Source: Fidelibacterota bacterium
GTDB taxonomy: Bacteria; Pseudomonadota; Alphaproteobacteria; Rhodospirillales; Rhodospirillaceae
DNA: 33,526 nucleotides
NCBI GenBank assembly: GCA_945903705.1
Contig: CAMDOZ010000014.1
Location: 1-33,526, forward strand
Reading direction: 5' to 3'
Made by a program: the position numbers and the translations under genes. Under the pieces are notes generated by a model. That model did not search any database and had not been told where the DNA came from. It saw nothing but the letters and a program-made list of their open reading frames with translations. Shown here piece after piece: positions 2,112 through 25,802 of the stretch (position 1 is its first letter; each line of letters begins with the position of its first letter).

Positions 2112-3680
2112 ATGTCGAACGCACGCAGACTGAAATGCGCGCTGACTGGTGTTGTGCTGGGCCTTAGTGCGCCCGCCTTCGCCCAAGATACGACTCTCTC
2201 TTGCTTTGCCGCCAAGGCGGACACCGTCGAACGCATCGCCAATTGCACGCAGGCGCTTCGCGGCACAAGCCTGGCCGCCGACACGCGTTCCCTCGCCCTC
2301 ATCACCCGTGCCCAGGCATATGTCACCGCAGGCGATTCCGCGAAGGCGATCGCGGACTTCGACGCGGCGCTGGTGATTACGCCTCAGGATGCGGTGGCGC
2401 GCCTTGGCCGCGGCAAGCTCAAGGAGCAGGCCGCGGATCTCGTTCAAGCCGAGGCCGACTACAGCGCCGCCATTGCCGCCGACCCGCTCGGCAAGAGCAC
2501 GGTCACCGGCGAGGCCTATACACGCCGCGGCGCCGTACGCATGAAACGCGGCCGCATGGACGCAGGCGTCGCCGACCTCGGCGAAGCGCGGCGCTTCAAT
2601 CCAAAAGATCCCGGACCGTTCAAAGCGCGGGGGAATTATTTCCTCGAGCGGGGCGATGCCCAAAAAGCCATCATCGAGCTGGAGCAAGCGACCGCGCTCG
2701 ACGCCAAAGACGCGGAAGCTCACACCCTTTTAGGCTACGCACGACTGCGCGCCGGCAAGGGTGACGAGGCCGTCGTTGCTTTCTCGGCAGCGTTGAATGT
2801 CGATGGCTCAAACAGCGCCGCCCTCCGGGGCCGCGGCACGGCTCACGGCCAGTTGCAGAACTACGAGGCCGCGATCTCGGACTTCACCCGCGCGCTCAGG
2901 CTCGATCCCAAGGACATCGCGGCCTTGGAAAGCCGCGGCGTCGCGGAACTCCAAAGCGGCGCCTACGGCGCTGCGGTGGCGGACTTCACACTGCTTCTGG
3001 ATGCGCGGCCCGGCGACCTGTCGGCGGCGCTCCTGCGCGGCAACGCGCGCCTCCAAAGCGGCAACCCCGAAGGCGCCGTGCAGGATTTCACCGCGGTGCT
3101 GCGCCGGCGACCCGGCGATACGGACGCGCTGATGGCGCGCGCGATCGCGCGGCAGTACACCGGCGAATTCGACGGCGCCGACGACGACCTGACCGCCATC
3201 CTCGAGCGCGTCTCGGACGCGGCCCAGCCACTGGCCAACCGCGGCTATGTGCGGATGATGAAGGGCGACTATGCGGGCGCGGCCAAGGACCTTTCCATTG
3301 CCATGGACCTTCCCGACGCGCCGCCGGCTCTGACGGTCTGGCGTTTCGTGGCGGAAGCCCGTGCCGGGCACAAGCCCGCCGATATCCTGAAAGCAACCGC
3401 CGATACCCTGGCCGCCGACAGCTGGCCGGCGCCGCTCCTCTCCTACTTCTTGGGCCGGGTCTCCGGCGATCAGCTTCTGGCGGCCGCCGCCAAGGATCCA
3501 GCGGAGGCCAAAGGCCGGGCCTGTGAGAGCTACTATTTCCTGGGCCAAGCCGCGATGCTGTCCAAGGACGCCCGGCAGGCCATGAAGCTTTTCCAGGCCG
3601 CCGTGGCCACAGGAATGACCCGGCACACCGAATACGTTGCCGCCAAAGCGGAATTAGCCCGCCTGGGGCAGCGGCCTTAG
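2112..3680 (+). CDS. Exported tetratricopeptide-repeat protein
   Basis: This 522-residue protein starts with a Sec-type signal peptide: basic residues RRLK, a hydrophobic stretch, and a likely cut after APAFA (about residue 24). It should act in the periplasm. The rest is a chain of about nine or ten TPR units, seen as repeated blocks of the type AIADFDAAL..P.D, AISDFTRALRLDPKD and AVADFTLLLDARPGD. The C-terminal part (CESYYFLGQAAMLSKDAR) resembles the end of NlpI-like TPR proteins. TPR proteins are scaffolds; no enzyme domain is visible and the partner is unknown. The ATG at 2112 follows a purine-rich AAAGGGTGG. It is transcribed with polA on one side and chvI on the other, separated from each by about 150 bases. 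Confidence 0.85.
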   Translation: MSNARRLKCALTGVVLGLSAPAFAQDTTLSCFAAKADTVERIANCTQALRGTSLAADTRSLALITRAQAYVTAGDSAKAIADFDAALVITPQDAVARLGRGKLKEQAADLVQAEADYSAAIAADPLGKSTVTGEAYTRRGAVRMKRGRMDAGVADLGEARRFNPKDPGPFKARGNYFLERGDAQKAIIELEQATALDAKDAEAHTLLGYARLRAGKGDEAVVAFSAALNVDGSNSAALRGRGTAHGQLQNYEAAISDFTRALRLDPKDIAALESRGVAELQSGAYGAAVADFTLLLDARPGDLSAALLRGNARLQSGNPEGAVQDFTAVLRRRPGDTDALMARAIARQYTGEFDGADDDLTAILERVSDAAQPLANRGYVRMMKGDYAGAAKDLSIAMDLPDAPPALTVWRFVAEARAGHKPADILKATADTLAADSWPAPLLSYFLGRVSGDQLLAAAAKDPAEAKGRACESYYFLGQAAMLSKDARQAMKLFQAAVATGMTRHTEYVAAKAELARLGQRP

Positions 3681-3681
3681 C

Positions 3682-3795
3682 GTCCTAACGGCTGCAAACA
3701 CCGCTAAGAGGACATACCTGCGCGATATTTTCGCCATAATACCCGCGTGTTATCACCACGGGTGAGAACCATGGGGGCACCACAAGCGTTAGGAC
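3682..3795. promoter_or_regulatory. Inverted repeats in the chvI upstream region
   Basis: The 147-base gap before chvI holds two inverted repeats. GTCCTAACG (3682-3690) is exactly complementary to CGTTAGGAC (3787-3795), with 96 bases between. Inside, TTATCACC (3750-3757) and GGTGAGAA (3761-3768) form a near-perfect dyad (7 of 8) around ACG. A TATA-like CATAAT lies at 3735-3740 but I see no convincing -35. The dyad is a candidate operator for the chvI promoter; this is inference. Confidence 0.3.
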
Positions 3796-3827
3796 ACCTG
3801 CTCCTGTCTCCCGGAAAGTGAGGTTTT

Positions 3828-4559
3828 GTGGCTTACCGCATCGCTTTAGTCGACGACGATCGCAACATTCTAACGTCCGTTTCCATGGTGTTGGAGGCCG
3901 AAGGATTCGGCGTCACGCAATATCGTGACGGCGCCGAGGCCCTCCGCGGCATGACCGCGGAACTGCCCGACCTTGCCATTCTCGATATCAAGATGCCGCG
4001 CATGGACGGCATAGAGCTTCTGCAGAAGCTACGGGAGAAGAGCACCCTGCCCGTCATCTTCCTGACGTCGAAGGACGACGAGGTCGACGAGCTCCTGGGC
4101 CTGCGCATGGGCGCGGACGACTACATCAAGAAGCCGTTCTCGCAGCGGCTGTTGATCGAGCGCGTCCGGGCGGTGTTCCGCCGCCTCGAGGCCCAAAAGC
4201 AGATGGATAGCCCGGGCGCGTCCGCGACCTCGCTGAAGCGCGGTGAGCTTGTGCTCGATCCGGCGCAACATCTTTGCCTGTGGAAGGGTGCTGCGGTGAA
4301 TCTGACCGTGACCGAGTTCCTGATCATTCAGGCGCTCGCCCAGCGGCCTGGCCACGTTAAGAGCCGTGACCAATTGATCGACGCAGCTTACGGCGAGCAC
4401 ATCTACGTCGACGACCGCACCATCGACAGCCACATCAAGCGGTTGCGCAAGAAATTCCGTGAGGTGGACAAGGATTTCGGCCATATCGAAACCTTGTACG
4501 GCGTCGGCTACAAGTATAACGAAACCAACGGCACGACGGCCGCCTCGACCGAAGTGTAA
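3828..4559 (+). CDS. chvI: ChvI-type DNA-binding response regulator
   Basis: This 243-residue OmpR/PhoB-family regulator is the partner of the kinase encoded next. The receiver domain (about 1-120) has the acidic cluster DDD at 9-11, the phosphoacceptor D53 in [14 protein letters not shown]80, and K102 in KKPF. The winged-helix domain (about 135-230) ends with the typical [14 protein letters not shown] and YGVGYKYNE. The opening [23 protein letters not shown] is characteristic of alphaproteobacterial ChvI. In that group ChvI/ChvG controls envelope, exopolysaccharide and acid-stress genes and is often essential or important for host association. The start is GTG at 3828 behind GTGAGG; no ATG in frame is closer to the domain edge. 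The 27-base gap to chvG points to one transcript. Confidence 0.93.
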
Positions 4560-4586
4560 ACACGGGCTACGGCCGGAGAACGAAGC

Positions 4587-6338
4587 ATGGAATTCCTGGC
4601 CGTGAACGCGGACCGCGATTTTCGCCTTGATGATCTTCGCATCAGGTCCGATGCCTCCAGCCTGGACGCCGGGGCCGGCAAACGTGGCCGGCTGCGCCGC
4701 CTCTTCTCGCCGCTGACGTTACGCATCCTCGCGGTCAACTTGAGCGCGCCAGTGCTGCTGGTGCTCGGTATTCTGTTCCTCGACCAGTATGAGGATACTC
4801 TCATCGCGGCCGAGTTGGACGACTTGCGCACGCACGGCGAGGTGATCGCCGCTTCCATCGGCGAAGGCGCTGTCATCGTCTCGGACACCGACGCGATTCC
4901 CCTGTTCACGACCGAGGGCGCGACGCGGGTGATCGATCCCGATTCCGCGCGGCAGCTCCTGCGCCGCCAGGCCTCGTTCGCGCGATTGCGGGCACAGCTT
5001 TTCGACCGCGACGGCAAACTGCTGGCGGATTCTCGCCTGTTGCAGGGCCCGGGCGGTGAGGTGCAGGTACAGGACCTGCCACCGTTGGAAAGCAGCGCTG
5101 TTCTACGGTTTGCTCGGGACATCTATGGCAAGACCATCGGACGCCTGACCGTCGACCGCAGCCTTGAGCCTTATAACGACCAGATGCGCCCGAGCGCGCC
5201 GGACTACAAGGAAGTCGTGATGGCGCTGCAGGCCGGCGAAACGGGGAACTCCGTGCGCCTGCGCGCCGACGGCCAGAAGGTGCTCTCGGTGGCCGTGTCG
5301 GTCCAATTCTATAAGCAGATCGTAGGCGCGCTTCTGGTCTCGCGCGACAGCAGCAATGTGGACAAGCGAATGTTCGCCGTACGCGGCTCGATCCTCGGCA
5401 TGTTCGCCTGGGTGCTGGCGCTGAGCGTGCTCACCTCGCTTTTCCTCGCCAGCACGATCGCGCGGCCGGTGCGCCAACTCGCGATCTCGGCAAAACGCGT
5501 GAGGGACTCCAAGAACCGCCAGCACACCATCCCCGATTTTACCAAGCGGAACGACGAGATCGGCGAGCTGTCGGAGGCGTTGCGCGACATGACCGAATCC
5601 CTGTGGCGGCGCATGGACGCCACGGAGCATTTCGCAGCCGACGTCGCCCACGAAATCAAGAATCCCCTCACCTCCTTGCGCAGCGCCGTGGAGACCGTCG
5701 GCCGCGTGAAGGATCCGGAGCAACAGAAGCGCCTGATGTCCATTATCATGGACGACGTCGCGCGCCTCGATCGGCTGATCTCGGAGATCTCGGACGCGTC
5801 GCGCCTGGACGCCGAAATGTCGCGCGCGGAAATGTCTCCAATGAAGATCAAGCCGCTGGTGCAAGCCCTGGCGGAAGTTCAGAACGCCAACGACAGTGCC
5901 ACCGCGCCGCGCGTGCAGGTGCTTGAGGATACCCCGCAAAAGGGCGTAAACCCGAAAGGCGCGGGCGAGCTGGTGGTCTTTGGCCTCGAAAGCCGCATCG
6001 GTCAGGTGCTCCGCAACCTGATCGGCAATGCCGTCTCCTTCAGCCCGCCGCAGGGCGTGATTTCCATCGGCGCGGGTCGCCAAGGCCGCTACGTGATCGT
6101 CACTGTGGAAGATCAAGGTCCGGGCATCCCCGAAGGCAAGGAAGCGGCGATCTTCGGGCGCTTCTATTCCGAGCGCCCGGAAGGCGAAAAGTTCGGCACC
6201 CACTCAGGTCTCGGACTTTCAATCTCTAAAACCATCGTCGAGGGCCACCGGGGCCAGATCTACGCCGAGAACATCGTCGGCGACGACGGGACGGTGCGCG
6301 GCGCGCGCTTCGTCGTGCTGCTGCCGGCGGCGACGTAG
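4587..6338 (+). CDS. chvG: ChvG-type membrane sensor histidine kinase
   Basis: This 583-residue kinase should sense envelope or acid stress and phosphorylate ChvI. A basic cytoplasmic N-terminus (about 1-44) leads into membrane helix 1 (about 45-65), a periplasmic sensor domain (about 70-262) and helix 2 (about 267-290). A HAMP linker (IARPVRQLAISAKRV) follows, then the phosphoacceptor H355 in FAADVAHEIKNPLTSLR. The ATPase domain has the N box (LRNLIGNAVSFS), G1 (EDQGPGIPE), F box (IFGRFYSERPEG) and G2 (SGLGLSISKTIVEGHRG). All catalytic elements are present. The stop at 6338 is three bases before the next gene, so the downstream DUF4169 and flavin genes are probably read from the same message. 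In many relatives hprK comes next; here it is about 9.2 kb away. Confidence 0.94.
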   Translation: MEFLAVNADRDFRLDDLRIRSDASSLDAGAGKRGRLRRLFSPLTLRILAVNLSAPVLLVLGILFLDQYEDTLIAAELDDLRTHGEVIAASIGEGAVIVSDTDAIPLFTTEGATRVIDPDSARQLLRRQASFARLRAQLFDRDGKLLADSRLLQGPGGEVQVQDLPPLESSAVLRFARDIYGKTIGRLTVDRSLEPYNDQMRPSAPDYKEVVMALQAGETGNSVRLRADGQKVLSVAVSVQFYKQIVGALLVSRDSSNVDKRMFAVRGSILGMFAWVLALSVLTSLFLASTIARPVRQLAISAKRVRDSKNRQHTIPDFTKRNDEIGELSEALRDMTESLWRRMDATEHFAADVAHEIKNPLTSLRSAVETVGRVKDPEQQKRLMSIIMDDVARLDRLISEISDASRLDAEMSRAEMSPMKIKPLVQALAEVQNANDSATAPRVQVLEDTPQKGVNPKGAGELVVFGLESRIGQVLRNLIGNAVSFSPPQGVISIGAGRQGRYVIVTVEDQGPGIPEGKEAAIFGRFYSERPEGEKFGTHSGLGLSISKTIVEGHRGQIYAENIVGDDGTVRGARFVVLLPAAT

Positions 6339-6341
6339 CCC

Positions 6342-6521
6342 GTGGCCGAGATCGTCAACCTTCGAACGGCACGCAAGCGCAAGGCGCGTGACGATGCGGA
6401 TGCCAAAGCCGACGCCAATCGCGCGAAGTTCGGACGGACGAAAGCCGAGAAGACGCGCGACGAAAAGAAAGCAGAGCACCTCAAGCGCATCGTCGACCAT
6501 AGCAAGCTCGACAGGGAATGA
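6342..6521 (+). CDS. DUF4169 family small protein
   Basis: A 59-residue, highly charged protein starting at GTG 6342, three bases after the chvG stop. It begins VAEIVNLRTARKRKARD and contains NRAKFGRTKAEK and a C-terminal HLKRIVDHSKLDRE. This layout (xEIVNLRxARK, then NRxxFGRTKAE) is the pattern I know for DUF4169, a family of unknown function common in Alphaproteobacteria. The sequence is rich in Lys, Arg, Ala and Asp and is likely one long helix. Its stop TGA overlaps the ATG of the apbE gene (ATGA at 6518-6521), so the two are translationally coupled. No function can be given. Confidence 0.78.
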   Translation: MAEIVNLRTARKRKARDDADAKADANRAKFGRTKAEKTRDEKKAEHLKRIVDHSKLDRE

Positions 6522-7375
6522 TGATCCGGGCGCGGCCTCTTCTGGGCACGCGGGTCGATATCCGCGTCGAGGATCCCGACGAGGACGCCGCCAACGCGGC
6601 CATCGATAGGGGCTTCGCCGCAATCGCCGATATCCACCGGCTGATGAGTTTTCATGAAAGCATGAGCGACGTGAGCCGGCTGAACCGGGACGCGGCGCGA
6701 GAGGCCGTGGCGGTCGATGCGCGTACCTTCGAGGTCTTGCGCCGCGCTCAGGATTTCTCGGCGCAGAGCGATGGATTGTTCGACATCACGACGGCACCCC
6801 GGCTCGTCGAATGGGCCTTCCTGCCGCGGCCTGACTGTGCACCCACGCCAGCGCCGGAGGCCTCGTGGCGGGATATCATCCTCGAGGACGAGAACCGCGT
6901 ACGATTCAGAAAACCTCTCTGGATCGATTTGGGCGGCATCGCAAAGGGATTCGCCGTAGATCAGGCGATGACTGCGGTGGGCGCCCGCCCCGAGATCCAG
7001 GTCTACATCAATGCCGGCGGCGACCTGCGGGTCGCCGGACCGAACATCGAGATGGTGCGGCTGCGATCCGCGATAGACATGGACGTCGTCCCGGTGATCG
7101 AAATGGAGGACGGCGCCCTGGCCAGCAGCAGCGGCCGCGAGCACCTGAAAGACCACCGGAATTCCCGCGTCGGACCCCATGTAGACGGGCGGAGCGGCGC
7201 AAGCGTGGGCGCCGACACATTCGCCTGTGTCGCGGCGGCCAACTGCCTGACGGCCGATGCGCTTACAAAAGTGGTCTTGGCGGCCGGTTCCCGGGCCGAA
7301 CCAATCCTTGGCCATTTCGGCGCAATCGCATATTTCTATGACCTGAGCGCCGGTTGGGTGACGTTAGGGGCGTAA
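6518..7375 (+). CDS. apbE: ApbE-family FAD:protein FMN transferase, no export signal
   Basis: ApbE enzymes split FAD and attach FMN through a phosphoester to a Thr or Ser of a target protein. This 285-residue copy has the family marks: LLGTRVDI near the N-terminus, SFHESMSDVSRLNR (about 44-57), GLFDITTAP (about 87-95), IDLGGIAKGFAVDQA (about 136-150), YINAGGDLRV (about 163-172), DGRSG (about 222) and TADALTKVVLAAG near the C-terminus (Mg and FAD site region). It lacks any signal peptide or lipobox, and the frame has a stop (TAG at 6500) just upstream, so an unseen leader is excluded. It is coupled to DUF4169 and followed by a membrane protein and an FMN-binding-domain protein, the likely target. 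The stretch around residues 218-226 is diverged from the usual SHIIDPRTG. Confidence 0.88.
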   Translation: MMIRARPLLGTRVDIRVEDPDEDAANAAIDRGFAAIADIHRLMSFHESMSDVSRLNRDAAREAVAVDARTFEVLRRAQDFSAQSDGLFDITTAPRLVEWAFLPRPDCAPTPAPEASWRDIILEDENRVRFRKPLWIDLGGIAKGFAVDQAMTAVGARPEIQVYINAGGDLRVAGPNIEMVRLRSAIDMDVVPVIEMEDGALASSSGREHLKDHRNSRVGPHVDGRSGASVGADTFACVAAANCLTADALTKVVLAAGSRAEPILGHFGAIAYFYDLSAGWVTLGA

Positions 7376-7390
7376 GGGGAATCTAAGTCT

Positions 7391-7849
7391 ATGAGTGAGC
7401 GCGTGGAGCGCGGCCCGTTGAAGTTGCCACGGGGCCGCCGGTGGACGGTTTATGGCATTTGCTTCGGCACCTGGATCACCGGCGTGCTGTGGCTCATCTA
7501 CCACTACTTCATGACTACCGAGGGCCGGTTCGGGCCGGAAACGCACCCCCTTGAGCAGTGGTGGAAAATTCTTCACGCCGGCTTCTCATTCTTTGCCGTC
7601 GGGATTCTGGGGCTTTTGTGGGGCGTACATATCCTGCGCGGATGGAACGCCAACTGGCGGCGCTGGTCCGGCGGGACGATGGCGGGCCTCTTCTTCGTTC
7701 TGACGGTGACCGGCTTTGGCCTCTACTACATCTACGTCATCGACGAGGCGTGGCGCGCCTGGACATCGATCATCCATTGGGTGCTGGGGCTTGCCGCCAT
7801 TGCGGCGTTTTTCATTCACTGGCTGTCGAAATCGACACCCCGAAACTAA
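7391..7849 (+). CDS. Four-helix membrane protein, candidate b-type heme protein
   Basis: This 152-residue protein has four predicted membrane helices (about 18-40, 59-81, 97-118 and 125-145). Arg/Lys-rich segments at the N-terminus (KLPRGRR), between helices 2 and 3 (LRGWNANWRRW) and at the C-terminus place both ends inside. Under that topology H62 and H129 lie at the outer side of helices 2 and 4, and H80 and H143 at the inner side, which would suit two stacked bis-His hemes. H38 and H52 are also near the outer face; THPLEQWWKILHAG resembles the HPxE...H segment of small cytochrome b-like or DUF4405-like proteins. It lies 15 bases after apbE and 46 before the FMN protein. I infer a transmembrane electron conduit between the quinone or cytosolic side and the exported flavoprotein. 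The family name is uncertain. Confidence 0.65.
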   Translation: MSERVERGPLKLPRGRRWTVYGICFGTWITGVLWLIYHYFMTTEGRFGPETHPLEQWWKILHAGFSFFAVGILGLLWGVHILRGWNANWRRWSGGTMAGLFFVLTVTGFGLYYIYVIDEAWRAWTSIIHWVLGLAAIAAFFIHWLSKSTPRN

Positions 7850-7895
7850 CAGGATATTGATGAGGCGGCCCAGCCGCCCGTGATAGATTGAAACC

Positions 7896-8444
7896 ATGCG
7901 TAGCAAGTTCCTGCTTTATCCAGCCGCCATTATCGCGAGCATCGCCGCCGTCCAGCCGGCGATCGCGGGTGCGCAGTACCTCACGGCCGAGCAGGCCATG
8001 GCGCTCCTGTATCCAAAGGGCGTGACCTTCACCGAGGATTTCCGACTACTGACCGACAAACAGATGCGCGACATCCGCGAATTCAGCGGCATCGAGCTGC
8101 GCGACCGCAAGGTACGCGCCTGGCGCGTGTCCAATGGCGACTGGCTTTTTGTCGACCACGTACTCGGCAAGGACGACACCGTCTACTACGCGCTTGCGCT
8201 TTCCGCGAAGGGTGAAGTCAAAGGCATCGAGATCATGGAGTGCTGGGAGCTCTACTCCAAGATCCGGTTGCCGGAGTGGCGCGCGCAGTTCACGGGCCGC
8301 AAGGACGGCGAACTGCGGATCAAGGGCGACATCGAGAACATCACCGGCGTGACGCTGTCGGCCAAGCACATTACCGAGGGCGTGATCCGGATGCTGGCGA
8401 CTCATACGCTGGTATTCGCCGATCCGACGTCGCCCGCCGGCTAA
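7896..8444 (+). CDS. Exported FMN-binding-domain protein, likely ApbE target
   Basis: A 182-residue protein with a Sec signal peptide (MRSK, hydrophobic 5-19, likely cut after AIA at 24); no twin-arginine motif. The C-terminal part fits the FMN_bind domain of NqrC/RnfG: GEVKGIEIMECWELY (about 106-120) and DIENITGVTLSAKHITEGV (145-163). The flavinylation consensus is D-x-x-[ST]-G-A-T; here it reads E147-N-I-T-G-V-T153, with Glu for Asp and Val for Ala, and T153 the expected attachment site. Function inferred: covalent-FMN electron carrier in the periplasm working with the upstream membrane protein. The gene converges on the metallophosphoesterase with a four-base overlap. The deviation from the consensus is the main doubt about whether FMN is really attached. 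Confidence 0.72.
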   Translation: MRSKFLLYPAAIIASIAAVQPAIAGAQYLTAEQAMALLYPKGVTFTEDFRLLTDKQMRDIREFSGIELRDRKVRAWRVSNGDWLFVDHVLGKDDTVYYALALSAKGEVKGIEIMECWELYSKIRLPEWRAQFTGRKDGELRIKGDIENITGVTLSAKHITEGVIRMLATHTLVFADPTSPAG

Positions 8445-9604
8445 GCGTCCTGTCTCAGCGTTATCAGCGTAATCTCTGACGGTACCGCCGTGCGCAGCGG
8501 CGGGCCCCAATAGCCCGTTCCCTGATTCACGTAGATCCACATATTCTCGAACCGGTTCAGGCCGCGGGAGAAGCGGTGGAAGAGTCCGATCAGGAGATTG
8601 AACGGGAAGTACTGCCCGGAGTGCGTATGCCCCGAAAGCTGGAGGTCGCAACCGGCAGCATGGCAGTCCTCAAAGCTCGCCGGTTGATGAGCGAGAATGA
8701 TACGTGGCGCGCCTTCCGGGGCGCCCGCGACCGCGCGCCGCGCATCGGAAGCATGATCGTTCGGCAGTGCGCGCGTCGACCAGTCCGTCACACCCGCCAC
8801 CACAATCGACTCCCCGTCTCGCGTGATCACGTCGTGAGCGTTGTTGAGAACGCGGGCACCCAGGCGGGCGAACTCGTCGATCCAGCCCATGGGATCGCTG
8901 AAATACTCGTGATTGCCGGTGACAAAATACATGCCGTGTGGCGCCTTGAGTTCACCCAAGGGCGCAACATGCTCGGCGAGGTCGTCCACGGCCCCGTCGG
9001 TGAAGTCGCCGGTCAGCGCGATTAAGTCGGGCTTCAAGCCATTGACGATATCGACGACGTTCTGAGTATAGCCCCTGCGCACCGTGAGACCGACGTGCAG
9101 ATCGGACACTTGCGCGATGGTGAAACCGTCAAAGGCTTTCGGAAGATTACGCAGCGCAACTTCGACCCGCTTCACCATGGGGCCGGTGCGCGCCTGGAAG
9201 ATGCCGAGCGCCGAGGTTCCCAACGCAAGCGCGCCAAGCGTGATCAAGGTGCGGCGGTCGAAGTCGACCATATCCGCCGGCGGCGCCACCTTCTTCCAGA
9301 TCAAGGTCACGATGTCGACTGCGAACACCATCGCCACGAAGGCCGTCATGACGCCGAAGACGACGTAAGACACCCAGTTAATGGCGACGATCATCGCCTC
9401 GCCGCCCTCACGCTGGGCGAGGTCGGCGAACCAGAGCCTGTTGCCAAAGAAGGCCGCAAGCTGCAGGGCGAGGATCGCGAGGACGATCAGCCAGGAGACG
9501 GTGAGATGTTGGCTGGCGAGCGGCCAACGCGCGATGACGCGCGCGCCTGCGTAAATATTGAAGGCAACGAGGACGCCAAGGATGAGCCAGATACGCGGCG
9601 GCAA
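8441..9604 (-). CDS. Membrane-anchored metallophosphoesterase (YkuE/YaeI-like)
   Basis: A 387-residue protein with four N-terminal membrane helices or hydrophobic segments (about 5-23, 36-54, 72-101 and 119-137) and a calcineurin-type phosphoesterase domain from about 160. The metal-binding motifs are complete: SDLHVG (D168, H170), GDFTDG (D200), GNHE (N231, H232), AHQP (H306) and SGHTHSGQ (H326, H328). Relatives hydrolyse phosphodiesters or UDP-diacylglucosamine-like pyrophosphates, but the substrate here cannot be read from the sequence. The start is TTG at 9604 with GGAG eight bases upstream on the minus strand. Its end overlaps the FMN protein gene tail to tail. Confidence 0.87.
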   Translation of the reverse strand: MPPRIWLILGVLVAFNIYAGARVIARWPLASQHLTVSWLIVLAILALQLAAFFGNRLWFADLAQREGGEAMIVAINWVSYVVFGVMTAFVAMVFAVDIVTLIWKKVAPPADMVDFDRRTLITLGALALGTSALGIFQARTGPMVKRVEVALRNLPKAFDGFTIAQVSDLHVGLTVRRGYTQNVVDIVNGLKPDLIALTGDFTDGAVDDLAEHVAPLGELKAPHGMYFVTGNHEYFSDPMGWIDEFARLGARVLNNAHDVITRDGESIVVAGVTDWSTRALPNDHASDARRAVAGAPEGAPRIILAHQPASFEDCHAAGCDLQLSGHTHSGQYFPFNLLIGLFHRFSRGLNRFENMWIYVNQGTGYWGPPLRTAVPSEITLITLRQDA

Positions 9605-9746
9605 GGGCGGTTCTCCGAGCTAGGCGCAGCATTTTAGCCGGCCGGGATGGTTAGCACAGTTTCGCCACAGTCGGTTGTTTTTCGTCCTATTCTCGCCGCG
9701 AAGCGCTGCGACAGTTCCACCCTCGAACCTAACTCTGGGGGCTGTC

Positions 9747-9917
9747 TTGAAATTCCTTGCCATTTTTTTCGTGTGCGCTGTGGTGAGCGCATCCGCACGC
9801 GATATCAATTTCGCGGTGATGTTTAGCATCCTGGCTGGAGCGACGCTCATTGAAGCGACCGCGCGGAGCCTCGCCGAGCGCGCAGCGCGCCGCCAGATGC
9901 CAGTGCGAAGCGAGTGA
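9747..9917 (+). CDS. Possible small single-helix membrane protein
   Basis: A 56-residue frame starting at TTG 9747 behind GGGGG. It gives KFLAIFFVCAVVSASARDINF, then AVMFSILAGATLIEATARSL and a basic tail. It looks like one or two membrane segments with a charged end. An upstream TTG at 9675 in the same frame would make 80 residues but adds an unlikely Pro/Ser-rich leader. No family is recognised. Codon third positions are mostly G or C, which mildly supports coding; the lack of ATG and a clean ribosome site argues against it. Confidence 0.33.
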   Translation: MKFLAIFFVCAVVSASARDINFAVMFSILAGATLIEATARSLAERAARRQMPVRSE

Positions 9918-10052
9918 ACGCGACGTCACGCGCGATGCCGTCATCACTTTTTTCGCGCTGCTGAATTATTGACACTTTTTAACGTCATCAGTTGCGAACA
10001 CGGTGGCGTAATGCACTTTCGATTTTGCCGACGACGGAAGGGGGAATCACCG

Positions 10053-10862
10053 ATGCGTCGTTTACTTTTTTTCCCGCTTGCGAGCGCCTGCGCTGTCTTG
10101 CTTAGCGCGTGTGCGCCGAATTTCTCGCCCAATACCTATTCCAGCAACGCGGTCCAGCTCGCCAACAAGGTCGAGGCAGGAACGATCATCGGCTTCCGCG
10201 AAGTGCAGATCAGCGCCAACGGCAGCATTGGCGCGGTGACCGGCGGCGCCGTGGGCGGCGTCCTGGGCGCGGAGTATGCGAACTCCGCACTGGTGGCCGT
10301 AGGTGGAACCACCGTCGGCGGCATGTTGGGCAATGCCCTTGAACACGCCGCCCGCGACACCACGGGCTGGGAATACATTATCCGCAAAGACAATGGCGAT
10401 ATGCTGTCGGTGACGCAGCGCGAAGCGACTCCGCTCACCTTGGCACAGCGCGTTCTCGTTATCATGGGTCCGCAAGCCCGCGTCGTACCCGACTACTCTG
10501 TGCCGCAGGAGCCGAGGGTCGCCGCCGCGCCGATCGAGGAGAAGAAAGAGGCGAAGGCCGAACCGGTGAAGGTGGAAGTAGTGCTATCGCTGCCACCGGG
10601 CGTGACGGTGCAGCCGAGGCCCGCAGAAGTGAAGGCCGCAGCCGCCGAGGACCCCGCCCCGGCGCTGCGTCCGGCGCCGTTCGAGGAGCGTCTGCTCGAT
10701 GCAATTACAATGACAACGCCGCTCTCGGAAATCATGGCTCATGAAACGCCGGTCGTCGCAGAGTCGGTCACAGAGGCCGAACCCGCCCCGGAGCCTGCCG
10801 CAGAAGCCGCCTCGGAACCTGAAACGCCGCCAGCCAGCGTTAAGGCGGCGCCGCAGCCTTAG
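10053..10862 (+). CDS. Glycine-zipper outer-membrane lipoprotein (SlyB/17-kDa antigen-like)
   Basis: A 269-residue lipoprotein. The start is ATG 10053, preceded by AAGGGGGAA. Residues 1-20 form a lipoprotein signal ending in LLSAC, so C20 is the lipidated residue. A glycine-zipper segment follows (GSIGAVTGGAVGGVLGAEY, then VAVGGTTVGGMLGNALE), with the WEYIIRKDNGDMLSVTQ stretch typical of SlyB/PcP and rickettsial 17-kDa antigens. Next comes an unusual tail of about 110 residues rich in Pro, Ala, Glu and Val (from about residue 155), which the family normally lacks. The tail could span the periplasm or bind the cell wall; that is inference. The last 23 bases overlap the convergent EamA gene. 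Confidence 0.78.
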   Translation: MRRLLFFPLASACAVLLSACAPNFSPNTYSSNAVQLANKVEAGTIIGFREVQISANGSIGAVTGGAVGGVLGAEYANSALVAVGGTTVGGMLGNALEHAARDTTGWEYIIRKDNGDMLSVTQREATPLTLAQRVLVIMGPQARVVPDYSVPQEPRVAAAPIEEKKEAKAEPVKVEVVLSLPPGVTVQPRPAEVKAAAAEDPAPALRPAPFEERLLDAITMTTPLSEIMAHETPVVAESVTEAEPAPEPAAEAASEPETPPASVKAAPQP

Positions 10863-11739
10863 GGCCGAAGAATTTCGGCCAAAGGGTGTTGAAAGCAAGA
10901 CCTGATATGATCAGAGCGCAGGCGACAATCTTCCAAAGTGGGAGCCCTTCGCCCAGAAGTGCGACCGAGGCGCCAATCCCGAAAACGGGCACGAGCAATG
11001 ACACAGGCGCGATGGTGGCCGCGGGATGGCGAGCGAGAAGCCAGCCCCAGGCTGTGTAGCCAAAAAGCGTATTGCCGAAGGACTGCCACAAGACGCCGGC
11101 CCAGGTAGCCACGTCGGCCATCACTAATCCCTCATGGATCGCCGGCCAGCCGTCGTAGAGGAGCGAGAGCACGACGAGCGGCGGTACCGCAAAGGCGCTC
11201 GCCCAAACGACGTAGGAGAGCATGTCCACCTGGCCGGCCTGACGCGCCACCGTGTTGCCCCCGGCCCAGCTTGCGCCCGCGAGAAGCACGAGCGCGAGTC
11301 CCAGCATCGTAGCGCTGCCATCGGTGAATATCGCAATCACCCCGACACCGGCCACGGCGACAAGAAGAGCGAGCCATTGAAACGGCCGCACCTTCTCGCC
11401 GTTGAACCAGATGGAAAGGCCGATTGTAAAGAAGACCTGCATCTGGACGACGAGTGAGGCGAGGCCCGGCGAGATATAGCCGTCCACGGCGATGTACAGC
11501 AGCGCAAACTGCCCGACACTGATGAGCAGGCTATAGGCGGCGAGCTGCTTCCAGGGGACCGCGGGCCGCTTGATGAACAGCGCCGCCGGAAAAAATACGA
11601 AGACGAAACGTAGGCAGGCGAACAGAATCGGCGGGAGATTGTCGAGGGTCGTCTTGATTACGACGAAGTTCGTGCCCCAGACGGCGACGACCGCAAGCGC
11701 CAGTAGGATGTGAGAGAGAGGAAGCGAGCGGGACGTCAA
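10840..11739 (-). CDS. EamA-family (DMT) inner-membrane exporter
   Basis: A 299-residue protein with ten hydrophobic helices in two EamA halves. The first half begins LLALAVVAVWGTNFVVIK, the classic WGxxFxxxK opening of the drug/metabolite transporter family; the second begins LALVLLAGASWAGGNTVARQ. TAWGWLLARHPAATIAPVSLLVPVFG and LLGEGLPLWKIVACALIISG are typical helix 8-10 segments. Members export amino acids and other metabolites, e.g. cysteine or O-acetylserine; the substrate here is not known. The start is TTG at 11739, with an in-frame stop at 11752, so no longer form exists; the ribosome site is weak. The 136 bases behind it up to the surface-carbohydrate gene hold nothing I can name. Confidence 0.87.
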   Translation of the reverse strand: MTSRSLPLSHILLALAVVAVWGTNFVVIKTTLDNLPPILFACLRFVFVFFPAALFIKRPAVPWKQLAAYSLLISVGQFALLYIAVDGYISPGLASLVVQMQVFFTIGLSIWFNGEKVRPFQWLALLVAVAGVGVIAIFTDGSATMLGLALVLLAGASWAGGNTVARQAGQVDMLSYVVWASAFAVPPLVVLSLLYDGWPAIHEGLVMADVATWAGVLWQSFGNTLFGYTAWGWLLARHPAATIAPVSLLVPVFGIGASVALLGEGLPLWKIVACALIISGLAFNTLWPKFFGPKAAAPP

Positions 11740-11875
11740 AGGGAGGTGCCGTCAAAGAGCTTCGAGACGGACGTTCTACCGTTTATTTGCCAACGGCGTT
11801 AGCGTCTTCGGCGTCGACTGATCCGCCATTCCGGTATTCCAGCACTGCGGCGACGGCATAGGTGGGCACCGCCGC

Positions 11876-13120
11876 TCACGGCGGCATCAAGAAAACTACC
11901 GAATCATCGAGATCCATGCCTTCGATTTTTGCGCCGCCCGTGAGCGCGAGCACGCGCCCGAGTGCTTGGCGGAACTCCTGAGGAGAAACTGTGAACTTCG
12001 CACGTTCCTGCTCATTCCTCTGGGCCGGCGCCCATCCCATCTGATTCAATCGCGTCGGCTTGGGCAGCAACTTCACGAGCTCGCGCGCGGTGATTTCCGC
12101 ACTTTTTTCCGGAAAGATGTCGGTGCGGTAGGGCGCGGCCAGCGGCCCCGCCCCGGCCTTCAACAGCTGTTCCACGGGGCCATAAGCCTCTTCCGCAGAA
12201 GCGACGGTGAAGTTGACGTCACGGACGATCAACCGTTTCGACCAATCTTCCAACGGACTGATATTGAGAGCTGGCGTGCCCAACAGCGTGACTTCCACGC
12301 CTAGCGTCGAGTCACTGTGAATCATCAGCGCGGCGTGCTTCGTCCATGGGTAAGGATCGGACTCGGCGACGACGCGGACATGGGGATGACCTTTCGCGAC
12401 CTCCCGCCAAAGTTCCACACGCTCGCTGGGGTGGGGCCGAATGACGATGTCGTGGCTTTTTTGTTCGATAAACCACGCAAGTAGCGCTTTCGTCTCCCGC
12501 AGGGCGGCGACCTCGTAATCCACGCGAGCCTTCATCAGCGCGGCCGTCTCGGGCTTCGACCTGTCGAGCTGCAACGCCGTTGCATAGAGATCCATCGCCT
12601 TGTTGACGTCGCCCCAAGTACTGTTGGTTCGTCCAAAGGACGTATTGAACAGGATGTAGGGCCGCGGATGCGGACGCTCATACGAAGCAGAGCGCAGCAA
12701 GTCGCCGCGCGCCGAGCCAGTTACGACCACGCCATCGCGCGCTTTTGGAAACGCCTTGACGAGCGCTCGCTTGTGGCTCGCGTTGAACGCAAAGTAGCGA
12801 TCGCAGTGATCGAAGGTGGAGGCTTCGGTCGTATTGGCGGCGAGATCTTCCGACCAGCCGAGCGATTCTTCATCCGAGGCAACGACGGCGTGACCATGGC
12901 CTTTGACGGTTGCCATGCCGTCGGCCTGAATCTTATTCGCCGTCTTGAAATAGTAGACGCCGCGCAGGGCCTGGCCGGCGTTTTGACCGAGACCCCAGTA
13001 CTGCCCGACCACAGCGTAGTAGCCGAGTTTGACGAGATGCGCCGCGATCAGGAGTCGCGAATCGAGATCGCGCCCTTTTATTTCGCAGGTGAGATAGACG
13101 ATTGGAGCCGTCGCAGCCAG
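11876..13120 (-). CDS. Surface carbohydrate biosynthesis protein, GT-B-like; probable CTG start
   Basis: The protein belongs to a family annotated as surface carbohydrate biosynthesis, with a GT-B-like fold as in capsule and teichoic acid polymerases. Visible marks are VVASDEESLGW, VVTGSARGDLLR, IVIRPHPSERVELWREV and MIHSDSTLGVEVTLLGTPALNI. The first usual start (GTG at 13012) would cut into the conserved N-terminus: the frame continues upstream as IVYLTCEIKGRDLDSRLL and LIAAHLVKLGYYAV, which matches the family opening. The only plausible start there is CTG at 13120, with AGGAGA seven bases before it, giving 414 residues. It is soluble, probably cytoplasmic, acting on a nucleotide-activated or lipid-linked sugar. 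It lies downstream of a terminator ending the amidohydrolase gene. No other polysaccharide genes are nearby. Confidence 0.75.
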   Translation of the reverse strand: MAATAPIVYLTCEIKGRDLDSRLLIAAHLVKLGYYAVVGQYWGLGQNAGQALRGVYYFKTANKIQADGMATVKGHGHAVVASDEESLGWSEDLAANTTEASTFDHCDRYFAFNASHKRALVKAFPKARDGVVVTGSARGDLLRSASYERPHPRPYILFNTSFGRTNSTWGDVNKAMDLYATALQLDRSKPETAALMKARVDYEVAALRETKALLAWFIEQKSHDIVIRPHPSERVELWREVAKGHPHVRVVAESDPYPWTKHAALMIHSDSTLGVEVTLLGTPALNISPLEDWSKRLIVRDVNFTVASAEEAYGPVEQLLKAGAGPLAAPYRTDIFPEKSAEITARELVKLLPKPTRLNQMGWAPAQRNEQERAKFTVSPQEFRQALGRVLALTGGAKIEGMDLDDSVVFLMPP

Positions 13121-13134
13121 GATGTCTCTCCTGC

Positions 13135-13171
13135 AAAAAAGAATCGGCCGTCGGCGAAAATCGCCGACGGC
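13135..13171 (-). terminator. Rho-independent terminator of the amidohydrolase gene
   Basis: A perfect 11-base stem, GCCGTCGGCGA (13147-13157) and TCGCCGACGGC (13161-13171), has a three-base loop. On the minus strand it is followed by CGATTC and six T (13140-13135). It ends the 13203-14429 gene. The T-run directly abuts the ribosome site of the next minus-strand gene, so read-through would be needed for cotranscription. Confidence 0.85.
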
Positions 13172-13202
13172 GCGGTCCTTTTCAAGTCAGTCGGCGTAGA
13201 TG

Positions 13203-14429
13203 CTAGGGGTAAGCCTTGCGATCCACAGCGACGCCCTTCAGGTAAACGGCATTGATCCGCCTCGTGTTCTTGATGTCTTCCAGCGGATTGCCGTCGAGCA
13301 CAAGGATGTCGGCGGTCTTGCCGACGGCCAACGTGCCGGAGTCCGGAATACGCAGCCATTTCGCCGCATCGCCCGTGGCGGAGACGAGGACCTTCATCGG
13401 CGACATGCCGGCGAGGACCATGTCTTCCATTTCGAAGTGCGGCGCGTACGGCGTGTTGCCGTCGGTGCCCATGACGATGACGGCGCCTGCGTCCGACATT
13501 TTCTTGAGATTGCGCGCCTGGATCGCATGACCCTTCGCGGCCCCTTCATTGGCGACATTACCGGCTTCGACCTTGGCGTATTCGGCGGCTGGAAGAGCCG
13601 CCTTCAGCCATGAGGCATCGGCGACCGCACCGCGGGCGCCCATGTTCGGGTTCAAGACGAAGTTCGGCTTCTGCTTCAGAAGGCCCATGAATTCGTCGTC
13701 CACGTCGGCGTCACGCACACCGTGGGCAAAGGCGTCGAGATTGGCGCGGAGCAGTCCTTTGGCGTCTGCGAGGTCGAAGATGTGGGCTGTGACGCGCAGT
13801 TTAGCCTTATGCGCGGCGTCAATGATCGGGCCGTAGAGCGCGGGCGTGAGCTTCTCGTACTTTTCGTCGCGGTCATCGACCCAGATTTTGAGGATATCAA
13901 CCTTCTTCGCCGCCTGCTCGCCGACGGCCTTGATGCCTTCCTCAGCGGTGTTGATCCAGTAGGCCTCTCCTCCCCGCCCAGGCTCGTGCCGGGTGATGCC
14001 GCGGCCGGCCGTGAAGTAGCGCGACGACGCTGCCGACTGTGCCGCGCGGTATTGATAGGGCGGTTCGGTATTGTCGATGCCCAAGCTCATCGAGGCGCTG
14101 ACGCCGAAATAGGCGCGGCGCTTAAAGTCCGTATCGATGCCTTCCTTGGTCTGGCTGAGATGTTCGTGCGTATTGATGAGCGTGGGCATGATGGTCTTGC
14201 CCTTCGCATCGACGCGTGTCGCACCGGCGGGCGCCTTCACGCTGGCGGCCGGGCCAACCTGCGTGATCTTGCCGTTCTCGACGACGACCGTACCGTTCTC
14301 GATCGGCGCGCTGCCGTCGCCGACGATAACGCGGCCGCCTTCGAAGACGAGATTTTGCGCGGCCGCGGGGCCTGCCAGCCCCATCGCGGCGACGAGCGCG
14401 GCGGCGGCGGTAAACTTCAAGGTTCGCAT
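13203..14429 (-). CDS. Exported metal-dependent amidohydrolase (imidazolonepropionase-like)
   Basis: A 408-residue amidohydrolase of the COG1228 type, related to imidazolonepropionase and Xaa-Pro dipeptidase-like enzymes. The start is ATG 14429 with a strong GGAGGGAGG six bases away; an upstream in-frame ATG at 14477 lacks one. Residues 1-24 are a Sec signal peptide ending AGPAAAQ. The metal site is visible: H88 and H90 (NTHEH), K181 (DILKIWVD, probable carbamylated Lys), H216 (TAHIFD), H236 (AHGVRD) and D323 (GTDGNTP). The C-terminal SGTLAVGKTADILVLDGNP is the usual beta-domain return. It should hydrolyse a C-N bond of a small amide or peptide in the periplasm; the substrate is unknown. AEC transporter upstream on the same strand, 112 bases away. 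Confidence 0.88.
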   Translation of the reverse strand: MRTLKFTAAAALVAAMGLAGPAAAQNLVFEGGRVIVGDGSAPIENGTVVVENGKITQVGPAASVKAPAGATRVDAKGKTIMPTLINTHEHLSQTKEGIDTDFKRRAYFGVSASMSLGIDNTEPPYQYRAAQSAASSRYFTAGRGITRHEPGRGGEAYWINTAEEGIKAVGEQAAKKVDILKIWVDDRDEKYEKLTPALYGPIIDAAHKAKLRVTAHIFDLADAKGLLRANLDAFAHGVRDADVDDEFMGLLKQKPNFVLNPNMGARGAVADASWLKAALPAAEYAKVEAGNVANEGAAKGHAIQARNLKKMSDAGAVIVMGTDGNTPYAPHFEMEDMVLAGMSPMKVLVSATGDAAKWLRIPDSGTLAVGKTADILVLDGNPLEDIKNTRRINAVYLKGVAVDRKAYP

Positions 14430-14541
14430 GAAAGCCTCCCTCCAGAGATTGAGAGGAAGCACTCTAACGCATTCCAAATCCGGGGAAAGACCCCGCGCAC
14501 CACTATGGCATATCCGTTACAGGCACACGGGGTCGTGAGGA

Positions 14542-15423
14542 TCAGCCGGTCAGTACGAATCCCATCAAAAAGGGAAGCAGGAGGAAGGCCGTGATGGTCG
14601 AAATGACAACCATCGCACCCACCTCTTCGTGTTTGCCGCCGTAGCGCAGTGCAAAAAGATAGGAGAACACAGCCGTCGGCATCGACGATTGAATCAATAC
14701 GACACCGCGCACGGGTCCTTCGAGACCAAGCACCGTCACCAATCCGAGCGCCACGCCGAAGCCGAGACCGAGGCGCAGGACTGAAAGCGCGAACGTGCGC
14801 GTAAAGGTGACGATACGCAGGCGTCCGAGCGAGGTCCCGAGGGAAATGAGCATGAGTGGGATGACCATGCGTCCAATCGCGTCGGTCGTGGTCATGATCA
14901 CGTCGGGCGGCGTTACGTCCGCCGCCAGACAGGCAATTGCAATGCCAATGCTCCAGAGGATCGGATTGCGCAACAGAATCGTCGGATGCATGTGCCCCGA
15001 GGCGACGCTTTGACCGATCGTGAATTGTGTAATCGTCATCGCGCAAAAAAAGGCGACGGCGAGCGAGAGTCCGGTATTGCCGAAAGCCAGCAGGCAAAGC
15101 GGAAGGCCCATGTTTCCGGCGTTGGGAAAAACCATCGCCGGCCAATAGGTCTTCAGCTCCATGCGCGCGAGCTTGAGAACGACGGCGGAGAGCAGGCCAA
15201 CGATGGCTAGCATCGCCAACCCAACGCCGGCGATTTCGCCGAGGGCCGAGAGTTCCGGCCGCCGGATCAGAAGCGTCGAGAACAACAGGCACGGCGTGCC
15301 GATGTTGATAATGAGATCCGTGATGGTGTTGTTGTCGAACGGCATACGCAGCCGCACCCAGGCAAAGCCGATGAAGGCCATGACAAGGACCGGCGCAATG
15401 ATGGTGAAGATCTGCTGGAGCAA
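14542..15423 (-). CDS. AEC-family transporter (auxin efflux carrier type)
   Basis: A 293-residue integral membrane protein with about ten helices. The opening FTIIAPVLVMAFIGFAWVRL, the NIGTPCLLFSTLL segment, FPNAGNMGLPLCLLAFG and the final VLIQSSMPTAVFSYLFALRYGG are the conserved blocks of the AEC/MdcF permease family. Members move malonate, malate or other small anions; no substrate can be read here. The start is TTG at 15423; an in-frame TAA at 15430 excludes a longer form, and the ribosome site is poor. It diverges from hprK across a 95-base gap. Confidence 0.87.
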   Translation of the reverse strand: MLQQIFTIIAPVLVMAFIGFAWVRLRMPFDNNTITDLIINIGTPCLLFSTLLIRRPELSALGEIAGVGLAMLAIVGLLSAVVLKLARMELKTYWPAMVFPNAGNMGLPLCLLAFGNTGLSLAVAFFCAMTITQFTIGQSVASGHMHPTILLRNPILWSIGIAIACLAADVTPPDVIMTTTDAIGRMVIPLMLISLGTSLGRLRIVTFTRTFALSVLRLGLGFGVALGLVTVLGLEGPVRGVVLIQSSMPTAVFSYLFALRYGGKHEEVGAMVVISTITAFLLLPFLMGFVLTG

Positions 15424-15481
15424 AGGGACTTACGCGACAGCCGAAGAGAGAGACAAAGAGATATCATACTGCTAGTCGAGA

Positions 15482-15499
15482 TTGACAGGGGAACCCCTG
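15482..15499 (+). promoter_or_regulatory. Consensus -35-like TTGACA overlapping a GC palindrome before hprK
   Basis: TTGACA (15482-15487) lies in the divergent AEC/hprK gap and overlaps the palindrome CAGGGG-AA-CCCCTG (15486-15499). No matching -10 is visible at 16-18 bases, so the promoter call is weak. The palindrome could be a binding site for a repressor of either gene. Confidence 0.28.
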
Positions 15500-15518
15500 C
15501 CCCTCCACCCTCGCCGCT

Positions 15519-15956
15519 ATGGATAAGATCAACGGGACGTGCGTGAGCATCGGAAATACGGGTGTTCTCATCCGGGGCAGGTCGGGCGCGGGTAAGTCGG
15601 ATCTCGCGCTGCGCTTGATCGACCGCGGCGCGGCCTTGGTGTCCGACGACTATTGCGAGATTGAGAAGAAGGACGGAGCGATTATCCTAAGCCCACCGGC
15701 AACGATCGCCGGTCAGATTGAAGTCCGCGGCTTGGGCATCGTACGCACGGAGTACCGTTCACACGTGCGATTGGATCTTGTTGTGGACCTTGCAAGCGAA
15801 ACTGGAATCGAGCGACTTCCTGAAAAGACCACGGAGGAGATTTCCGGCGTCATGGTGGCTTGGATGCAGGTGGATCCCACGCGCGCTTCGGCGGATGCCA
15901 AAGTGCGGTTGAAGGTTGCCTCACTTCATTCGGGCGACAAGGACTCGTCGCGATGA
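15519..15956 (+). CDS. hprK: Short HPr kinase/phosphorylase (catalytic domain only)
   Basis: A 145-residue protein, about half the length of Firmicutes HprK, because the N-terminal domain is absent, as is usual in Alphaproteobacteria. It has the Walker A motif GRSGAGKSD (about 19-27), the ALVSDDY segment that binds metal and takes part in phosphotransfer, and the HprK signature IEVRGLGIVRTEYR (about 67-80). It phosphorylates a serine of HPr; here S48 is the likely target. It overlaps rapZ by four bases (ATGA at 15953), so translation is coupled. The ATG at 15519 has no strong ribosome site but begins exactly at the domain edge. Confidence 0.93.
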   Translation: MDKINGTCVSIGNTGVLIRGRSGAGKSDLALRLIDRGAALVSDDYCEIEKKDGAIILSPPATIAGQIEVRGLGIVRTEYRSHVRLDLVVDLASETGIERLPEKTTEEISGVMVAWMQVDPTRASADAKVRLKVASLHSGDKDSSR

Positions 15957-25082: not shown

Positions 25083-25802
25083 ATGCCGAAGAAAGCCATG
25101 CTGCTCGCGGCCGGCCTAGGGCAACGCATGCGTCCGGTGACGGACACTATTCCGAAACCGTTGGTCAAGATCGGCGGCAAGAGCCTGATCGACTGGACGC
25201 TGGACTCGCTCGCGGGCGTGGGCATTGGCGAGGCCATCGTCAACGTCCATTACCTTGCGCCGCTGCTTGTGCGCCACCTTTCCGGACGCATGAGCCCGCG
25301 TGTCGTCATATCCGATGAAACCGAGCGGCTCCTGGATACGGGCGGCGGCGTTGCGAAGGCATTGCCGCTCTTGGGCACTGAGGCCTTCTTCGTGTGCAAC
25401 TGCGATGCCATCATCATTGACGGAGCCGTACCGGCGCTGCGCCGGATCGCGAGCGCGTGGAACGACGGCCTGGATGTTCTGATGCTGGCTCATCCGCGCG
25501 AGACGGCCCACGGCTTCGACGGCGCCGGGGATTTTTTCATCGACGGCGAGGGCCGCATGACCCGGCGCGGATCCGCGGCCACGGCGCCTTTCGTCTACGC
25601 CGGCCTTTTCATCATCCATCCCCGCGCCTTCGCCGGAACGAAGCCGGAGCCCTTCTCGCTGAACCGTGTGTGGGACACGGCGATCGCGGCCGGCCGGATG
25701 CGCGCCCTGATCCACGACGGGCAATGGTTCCACGTCGGAACGCCTGACTCGATCGGCGAAACTGAGGCCTTGCTGATGCAAGGTCGGCAAGCGGCATTGT
25801 GA
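25083..25802 (+). CDS. murU: N-acetylmuramate-1-phosphate uridylyltransferase MurU
   Basis: A 239-residue nucleotidyltransferase that turns MurNAc-1-phosphate and UTP into UDP-MurNAc. The signature is AMLLAAGLGQRMRPVTDTIP followed by KPLVKIGGKSLIDWTLD. Others are IVNVHYLAP, SDETERLLDTGGGVAKALPL, FFVCNCDAIII and the end WFHVGTPDSIGETEALL. Two ATG codons stand side by side (25080 and 25083); the second has the better spacing from GAGG. It lies 16 bases after amgK and overlaps addB by four bases. Confidence 0.93.
   Translation: MPKKAMLLAAGLGQRMRPVTDTIPKPLVKIGGKSLIDWTLDSLAGVGIGEAIVNVHYLAPLLVRHLSGRMSPRVVISDETERLLDTGGGVAKALPLLGTEAFFVCNCDAIIIDGAVPALRRIASAWNDGLDVLMLAHPRETAHGFDGAGDFFIDGEGRMTRRGSAATAPFVYAGLFIIHPRAFAGTKPEPFSLNRVWDTAIAAGRMRALIHDGQWFHVGTPDSIGETEALLMQGRQAAL

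Follow-up and report, generated by a model that had tools for sequence, protein, structure and literature searches.

How can a flavin transferase without a signal peptide load a substrate which works outside the cytosol? This question is posed by three adjacent genes in the window, a stretch of 33,526 nucleotides of contig CAMDOZ010000014.1 (assembly GCA_945903705.1), whose genome belongs to Rhodospirillaceae by its GTDB lineage. The genes encode a transferase of the ApbE family, which moves flavin mononucleotide (FMN) from flavin adenine dinucleotide (FAD) onto proteins, a small four-helix membrane protein which is a predicted cytochrome, and an exported FMN_bind protein (Table 1). All three open reading frames (ORFs) were found at the places given by the original prediction. 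The trio is real and its gene order is more than chance, because the same genes recur together in other genomes. We consider it probable that the three genes form a compact ApbE-linked module, a membrane electron conduit to covalently bound periplasmic flavin.

Conservation of the trio in other genomes was the test which the original prediction had set for itself, and the trio was found in both a genus and a phylum sample. Among 19 genomes of the genus, 16 had both ApbE and the cytochrome and the other three had neither (Fisher p 0.001, relatedness not corrected for), while the FMN protein was present in 18. All three genes lay together in eight of the 16 carriers (one FMN gene was cut by a contig end), seven carriers had paired ApbE and cytochrome genes with FMN genes elsewhere, and G003 had an FMN-cytochrome pair at one site and an ApbE-FMN pair at another. 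Several FMN genes were present in some genomes of the genus, and G010 gave five matches, one of them partial and at the end of a contig. Because some of these members have several FMN genes and one ApbE, a single ApbE and cytochrome can probably serve several FMN proteins. The window's genome has a second cytochrome-FMN pair without its own ApbE (C43, L024:7978-9112), and about 2 kb from this pair is a large gene (11050-13995, - strand) which looks by eye like a TonB-dependent receptor.

The trio was also found far outside the genus, with the class taken as Alphaproteobacteria and the phylum as Pseudomonadota. The cytochrome was matched in five of 289 genomes of the class sample and in 14 of 398 genomes of the phylum sample, the own genome included in both. 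Eleven of the 13 other genomes of the phylum sample had a contiguous trio, in the order FMN-ApbE-cytochrome and not ApbE-cytochrome-FMN as in the window, and G680 had FMN and cytochrome genes only. The cytochrome match of G604 (E 1.2e-4) was treated as chance, with no ApbE or FMN gene nearby. A contig scan gave carriers at 28 loci, 16 of them on contigs already counted. These carriers were metagenome-assembled genomes titled Rhodospirillaceae, Alphaproteobacteria, Gammaproteobacteria or Pseudomonadales and the isolate Dyella japonica DSM 16301; some were titled Marinimicrobia, probably wrongly.

The window ApbE was the sole PF02424 match in its genome assembly (93% complete, 240 contigs, so that others may be missed), and the profile of its family matches 13 distinct ApbE sequences in the PDB. 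There is no room for a signal peptide, with 10 residues from the in-frame stop to the conserved RPLLGT. Fewer than 22 residues precede this motif in 13 of the 39 family rows which have it; it is missing from four of 43 rows, three of which end at contig ends, the other being L069. The other 26 rows were judged by hydrophobicity, and L040 has a possible upstream anchor. By reading of sequences, about five of the 29 ApbE loci of the class sample also appear signal-less. In Klebsiella a signal-less ApbE is known for a cytosolic substrate (PMC12052999).

In the structure of Treponema pallidum ApbE the Mg2+ ligands include Asp284 and Thr288 (PMC5655446). At the site where characterised ApbEs have D-x-x-x-T, the window protein reads D247-A-L-T-K251, and D247, L249, T250 and K251 were each kept in 43/43 family members. 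As control we used ApbEs of the class sample, namely the 29 of 42 matches with loci. The motif was recognised in 23 of the 29 (the pattern found none in six), with Thr in 22 and Lys in one, L104, which itself belongs to the family of the window ApbE. Compared with the canonical extracytosolic Mg-dependent ApbE of Vibrio cholerae and T. pallidum type, the window protein has neither signal peptide or lipobox nor the Thr, and keeps the Asp.

The original prediction had placed a near-consensus flavinylation site, E147-N-I-T-G-V-T153, in the exported protein, and this site is present as stated. The protein reached 21.9 bits for PF04205 in one search (cut-off 22.0) and 23.4 bits, over the cut-off, in another. 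Its profile finds RnfG of PDB entries 7zc6 (E 7e-7) and 9eri, with the ITGAT or ITGST stretch aligned, and NqrC was also matched. In an alignment of 39 readable members (one truncated row was excluded), G151 and T/S153 were kept in 39/39, S/T150 in 35/39 and A152 in 24/39. Position C116 is Cys in 21/39 and Tyr in 18/39; RnfG presumably has another residue there. The described flavinylation motif is D-x-x-[ST]-G-A-[ST] (PMC12052999), from which the window site differs by E instead of D and V instead of A.

The N-termini of the FMN proteins resemble signal sequences by eye, that of the window being Sec-like, and twin-arginine motifs are present in two distant relatives (L129 and L148). The first 12 residues (MRSxFLLxPAAI; window 7896-7931) were better conserved than the mature part, with mean pairwise identity 0.67 against 0.45 in the near set (n = 11), which is unusual for a cleaved signal peptide.

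For the membrane protein, a four-helix chain with histidines at both membrane faces had been proposed, and the AlphaFold model and the alignment agree with it. The modelled helices are 14-40, 53-87, 92-114 and 119-148 (mean predicted local distance difference test, pLDDT, 76.7; predicted template modelling score, pTM, 0.50), and by the positive-inside reading both termini would be cytosolic. H62, H80 and H129 were kept in 50/50 homologues and H143 in 49/50, the lone miss (L069) being a row cut at a contig end, while H38 (36/50) and H52 (29/50) were not conserved. Helix 2 carries H62 and H80, and helix 4 carries H129 and H143; H62 and H129 are predicted at the periplasmic side, H80 and H143 at the cytoplasmic side. 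This layout is as expected of a protein with two bis-His b hemes, one near each face, with H62/H129 and H80/H143 as predicted ligand pairs.

No Pfam family was over its cut-off for the window membrane protein, with DUF4405 (PF14358) at 14.6 bits against 26.7 and Ni_hydr_CYTB (PF01292) at 17.0 against 30.1. Among 19 near members, Ni_hydr_CYTB had E <= 0.1 in 13, all sub-threshold (best 2.5e-5), and DUF4405 reached E 0.1 in five, below cut-off (best 0.0087). A homologue at L144, 38% identical to the window protein over 141 columns, had DUF4405 at 30.0 bits, over the 26.7 cut-off; it was the only one of six distant members tested which passed. Purified DUF4405 and FezC proteins bind heme b (PMC11334425). 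Heme binding is predicted here because of the invariant His pairs and these heme-binding relatives.

Most distant loci had a gene of 300-330 residues immediately upstream of the FMN gene, and in Dyella it encodes DUF6662 (PF20367). When a phylum sample of 398 genomes, apparently identical to the one above, was searched for PF20367, 10 genomes matched, four of them from one genus. Nine were already among the cytochrome matches, a raw association of 9/10 against 5/388 (Fisher p 3e-14, relatedness not corrected for); in the tenth (G659) extended profiles also showed the trio immediately downstream, so that the trio directly follows one DUF6662 copy in 10/10 genomes. In G696 a second DUF6662 match was found elsewhere in the genome. 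The Dyella protein was modelled as a 12-strand barrel (pLDDT 79.2, pTM 0.78), and in Foldseek it matched FapF (E 9e-12) as well as an outer-membrane channel of COG4313 (E 2e-7). DUF6662 has no conserved flavinylation motif (one of 12 sequences has one). The window's genome had no DUF6662 match up to E 10. It means that DUF6662 is part of the wider system and not of the window's version.

From these data we propose the following mechanism. The signal-less ApbE would move FMN from FAD onto T153 in the cytosol, before or during export; the motif which it recognises is short and linear. The FMN protein would then be exported, by a Sec-like signal in the window and by twin-arginine signals in the two distant relatives. 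In the four-helix protein, helices 2 and 4 may hold the two b hemes between them, one per face. Electrons taken from a cytoplasmic donor or from the quinone pool would be relayed by this protein to the periplasmic FMN, from where they would pass to a periplasmic or outer-membrane acceptor. In the 10 sampled genomes, the upstream DUF6662 gene suggests that electrons have a path, or substrates a channel, through the outer membrane; the window genome is without detectable DUF6662, and therefore the acceptor would be a different one here. If flavinylation does precede export, there is no need for ApbE to be outside the cytosol, and one cannot tell from its own signal peptide where the substrate acts. 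By gene order and co-occurrence, the small cytochrome and DUF6662, both of unknown function, are joined to ApbE flavinylation.

Several observations weigh against the conduit with cytosolic flavinylation. A cytosolic ApbE and a Sec-exported substrate are an awkward pairing. The Mg2+-binding Thr is replaced by an invariant Lys, and the His which acts as catalytic base in V. cholerae aligns with H221, which was kept in only 29/43 members (a different residue in 13 of the 42 rows with a residue there); therefore the activity of ApbE is not certain. In the FMN protein, the acidic residue at -6 (position 147) is D/E in only 10/39 members, and D/E at -8 is commoner (24/39). The cytochrome profile had no match up to E 10 in the PDB sequences, and Foldseek with the model gave no significant match (best E 0.79, cytochrome b6). 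By VIA the best cytochrome b, 8q1b_C (Z 7.7, root mean square deviation 4.3, 113 aligned), ties with unrelated helical proteins. The fold was left without assignment, because cytochrome b6/bc1 and hydrogenase cytochrome b rank near the top and not above unrelated bundles. The co-occurrence is also not complete: G009 and G017 carry the FMN gene without ApbE or cytochrome, and among 50 cytochrome loci, ApbE was missing from the examined stretch in seven and the FMN gene in 11 (some at contig ends). In the phylum sample DUF6662 is lacking at two contiguous trios out of 11 (G637 and G611); G637 has a Porin_O_P gene at that place, and Porin_O_P is also present in G680.

The doubts about ApbE lead to a different explanation, namely that ApbE is inactive as transferase, the flavin being bound non-covalently or loaded by another enzyme, and the gene set is a degenerate remnant. 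It would fit the Lys in 43/43 members, the replaced base His (13/42) and the lack of a signal peptide. However, D247, L249, T250, K251 and the substrate Ser/Thr are invariant across distant genomes, which argues for selection and against decay, and this ApbE has no second PF02424 protein beside it in the assembly; we regard a remnant as unlikely. Another explanation keeps the conduit and specifies its acceptor: as an assimilatory ferric reductase, the FMN protein would reduce periplasmic or siderophore-bound Fe(III) for uptake. At one locus (L067) an FTR1 iron permease gene and a Dyp-type peroxidase gene are found upstream of the trio, four loci have TonB-dependent receptors at a distance of about 6 kb or less (L063 by Pfam; L024, L042 and L070 by eye), and iron links are known for the PepSY- and MsrQ-type flavinylated systems (PMC8238504). 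But L067 is just one good iron neighbourhood, TonB receptors are common in such genomes (no baseline was computed), and no iron gene was seen beside the window trio or most other loci by eye, without systematic search. We consider this special case possible but doubtful. The readings overlap, and the likelihoods which we attach to the conduit, to iron and to the envelope-stress system discussed below do not add up to a whole.

The original prediction had joined the trio to ChvI/ChvG and to envelope stress. In this explanation the three genes would be transcribed together with chvG and would serve ChvIG as target or sensor arm, reporting or repairing envelope oxidative damage. The window genes from chvG through the FMN gene are tightly packed: three bases separate chvG and the DUF4169 gene, the stop of the latter overlaps the apbE start by four, and gaps of 15 and 46 bases follow. 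The DUF4169 gene, unmentioned in the original prediction, fills the space between chvG and apbE, which are therefore 179 bases apart; we count it as a neighbour of the trio. Over 3600-8700 no promoter-like site was found (0.9 expected by chance) and terminator-like sites numbered five (3.9 expected), one of them on the + strand (7792-7807) inside the end of the cytochrome gene and none on that strand between chvG and apbE; the scan is uninformative, and its support for cotranscription is weak.

The linkage itself is peculiar to a few close relatives. ApbE follows chvIG in 4/19 genus genomes only, and in two of these four (G002 and G012) an opposite-strand ORF, which we take to resemble PNPOx-like FMN-binding regulators, lies between the DUF4169 gene and apbE. 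In the other 15 genomes the examined stretch downstream of chvG, usually 1.5 kb long but 553 bases in L118, contained no ApbE. An ORF with an HprK-like P-loop follows chvG in nine of these 15, eight by pattern and L112 by eye (no family search), and is lacking in six. The distant trios looked at also sit in other neighbourhoods. In Caulobacter, chvIG and hprK form an operon, and the ChvI box is TTGC-N3-GCAA (PMC9731502). The exact Caulobacter box is absent from the window, and one-mismatch sites numbered 17 against 16.8 expected by shuffling, though the box of this genus may differ. Since hprK starts at 15507, about 9 kb (6339-15506) lie between chvG and hprK-rapZ, and the simplest reading is that this segment, with the trio included, lies between chvG and hprK in the window's lineage. 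The adjacency to chvG tells little on function, and read-through from chvG is possible in the window genome. We regard the trio as an arm of ChvIG as unlikely. The original inference of a membrane redox conduit is kept, with its flavin transferase, probable two-heme cytochrome and exported flavoprotein; its coupling to envelope stress is not supported, given a ChvIG link in so few genomes.

Table 1. Coordinates of the trio and its neighbours in the window.
Feature	Coordinates	Strand	Evidence
apbE, FAD:protein FMN transferase family, 285 aa	6518..7375	+	PF02424 134.9 bits (cut-off 25.6), profile positions 1-249 of 266
Four-helix membrane protein, predicted two-heme b-type cytochrome, DUF4405/FezC kind	7391..7849	+	conserved His, AlphaFold helices
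Exported FMN_bind protein, 182 aa, signal-like N-terminus, predicted flavinylation site T153 in ENITGVT	7896..8444	+	PF04205
chvI-like response regulator (context)	3828..4559	+	Response_reg and Trans_reg_C above cut-off
chvG-like sensor kinase (context)	4587..6338	+	Stimulus_sens_1, Sensor_TM1, HAMP, HisKA and HATPase_c above cut-off; NF058527 (ChvG) 417 bits, below 740 cut-off
DUF4169 small basic protein, 59 aa	6342..6521	+	PF13770 67.8 bits, cut-off 25
Metallophosphoesterase, convergent with FMN gene	8441-9604	-	
hprK match (context)	15507..15875	+	PF07475 78.5 bits
rapZ, next after hprK	15860-16903		RapZ domains

Some other neighbours were observed. Of 17 loci at which FMN genes are not beside the cytochrome gene, seven have a gene which looks by eye like glutamate synthase; this resembles local synteny of close relatives, and we do not propose the gene as a functional partner. 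One of the 17 (L172) holds ApbE too. At L059, L060, L063 and L064, which come from three genomes, the neighbours of the FMN gene are one gene for about 395 amino acids with a twin-arginine-like N-terminus and a small second gene. The L063 pair, the only one searched in Pfam/NCBIfam, showed a methyltransferase domain and a weak DUF1153/SciP match. At L150 and L151 (one genus), TauE-type transporter-like and metallo-beta-lactamase-fold-like genes adjoin the trio, and L150 additionally has a sulfide:quinone oxidoreductase-like gene, all by eye. Elsewhere in the window (25799-32262) a PD-(D/E)XK nuclease gene adjoins a UvrD-type helicase gene, a pair which we take to be AddB/AddA-like.

The original prediction did not recognise this minimal set, and this is half right: a 2024 paper describes ApbE with DUF4405/FezC cytochromes (PMC11334425), and this exact set was not found described. 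ApbE, a small cytochrome and a flavinylated protein are an already described kind of system (PMC11334425, PMC8238504). In the open-access papers which were searched, supplements apart, we did not find the four-helix single-chain cytochrome below Pfam reach, the signal-less Lys-type ApbE or the DUF6662 link, nor a description of the gene set as a whole; DUF6662 was not mentioned there at all. The supplements of the two key papers may list the set. It may be, as a tentative proposal, that these genes represent a distinct class of trans-envelope flavin conduit, in which a cytosolic ApbE subfamily, using the invariant Lys where others bind Mg2+, flavinylates before export, a single-chain two-heme cytochrome of 150 residues reduces the substrate, and in many carriers the 12-strand DUF6662 barrel is dedicated to completing the path over both membranes, the window being a barrel-less reduced form.

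The Caulobacter chvI-chvG-hprK operon (PMC9731502) is similar to the window in the adjacent chvI and chvG, with hprK and rapZ further downstream, and differs in that chvG and hprK are split here by about 9 kb including the trio. RnfG and NqrC share the FMN_bind domain with the exported protein, RnfG being aligned over the ITGAT stretch, but no Rnf or Nqr gene was among the neighbours identified. The five flavinylation-associated systems (NapH-, MsrQ-, PepSY-, DsbD- and NQR/RNF-like; eLife 2021, PMC8238504) also cluster apbE with an exported flavinylated protein and a membrane electron carrier. Unlike in those five, PF03929/PF16357, PF12801, PF01794, PF02683 and PF03116 are absent among the six listed matches of the window membrane protein at E <= 1. 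The nearest systems are the ApbE-linked DUF4405/FezC cytochromes (mSystems 2024, PMC11334425), in which a small membrane cytochrome is also beside apbE in Proteobacteria, with four conserved histidines (two pairs, the pairing being our prediction here) and a flavinylated extracytosolic partner. The partner named in that paper is Flavodoxin_4, whereas the window has an FMN_bind protein and its ApbE is signal-less. DUF4405 has six membrane helices and the window protein four predicted ones, and FezC makes its sites as a homodimer, whereas in the window protein all four His are within a single chain of about 150 residues.

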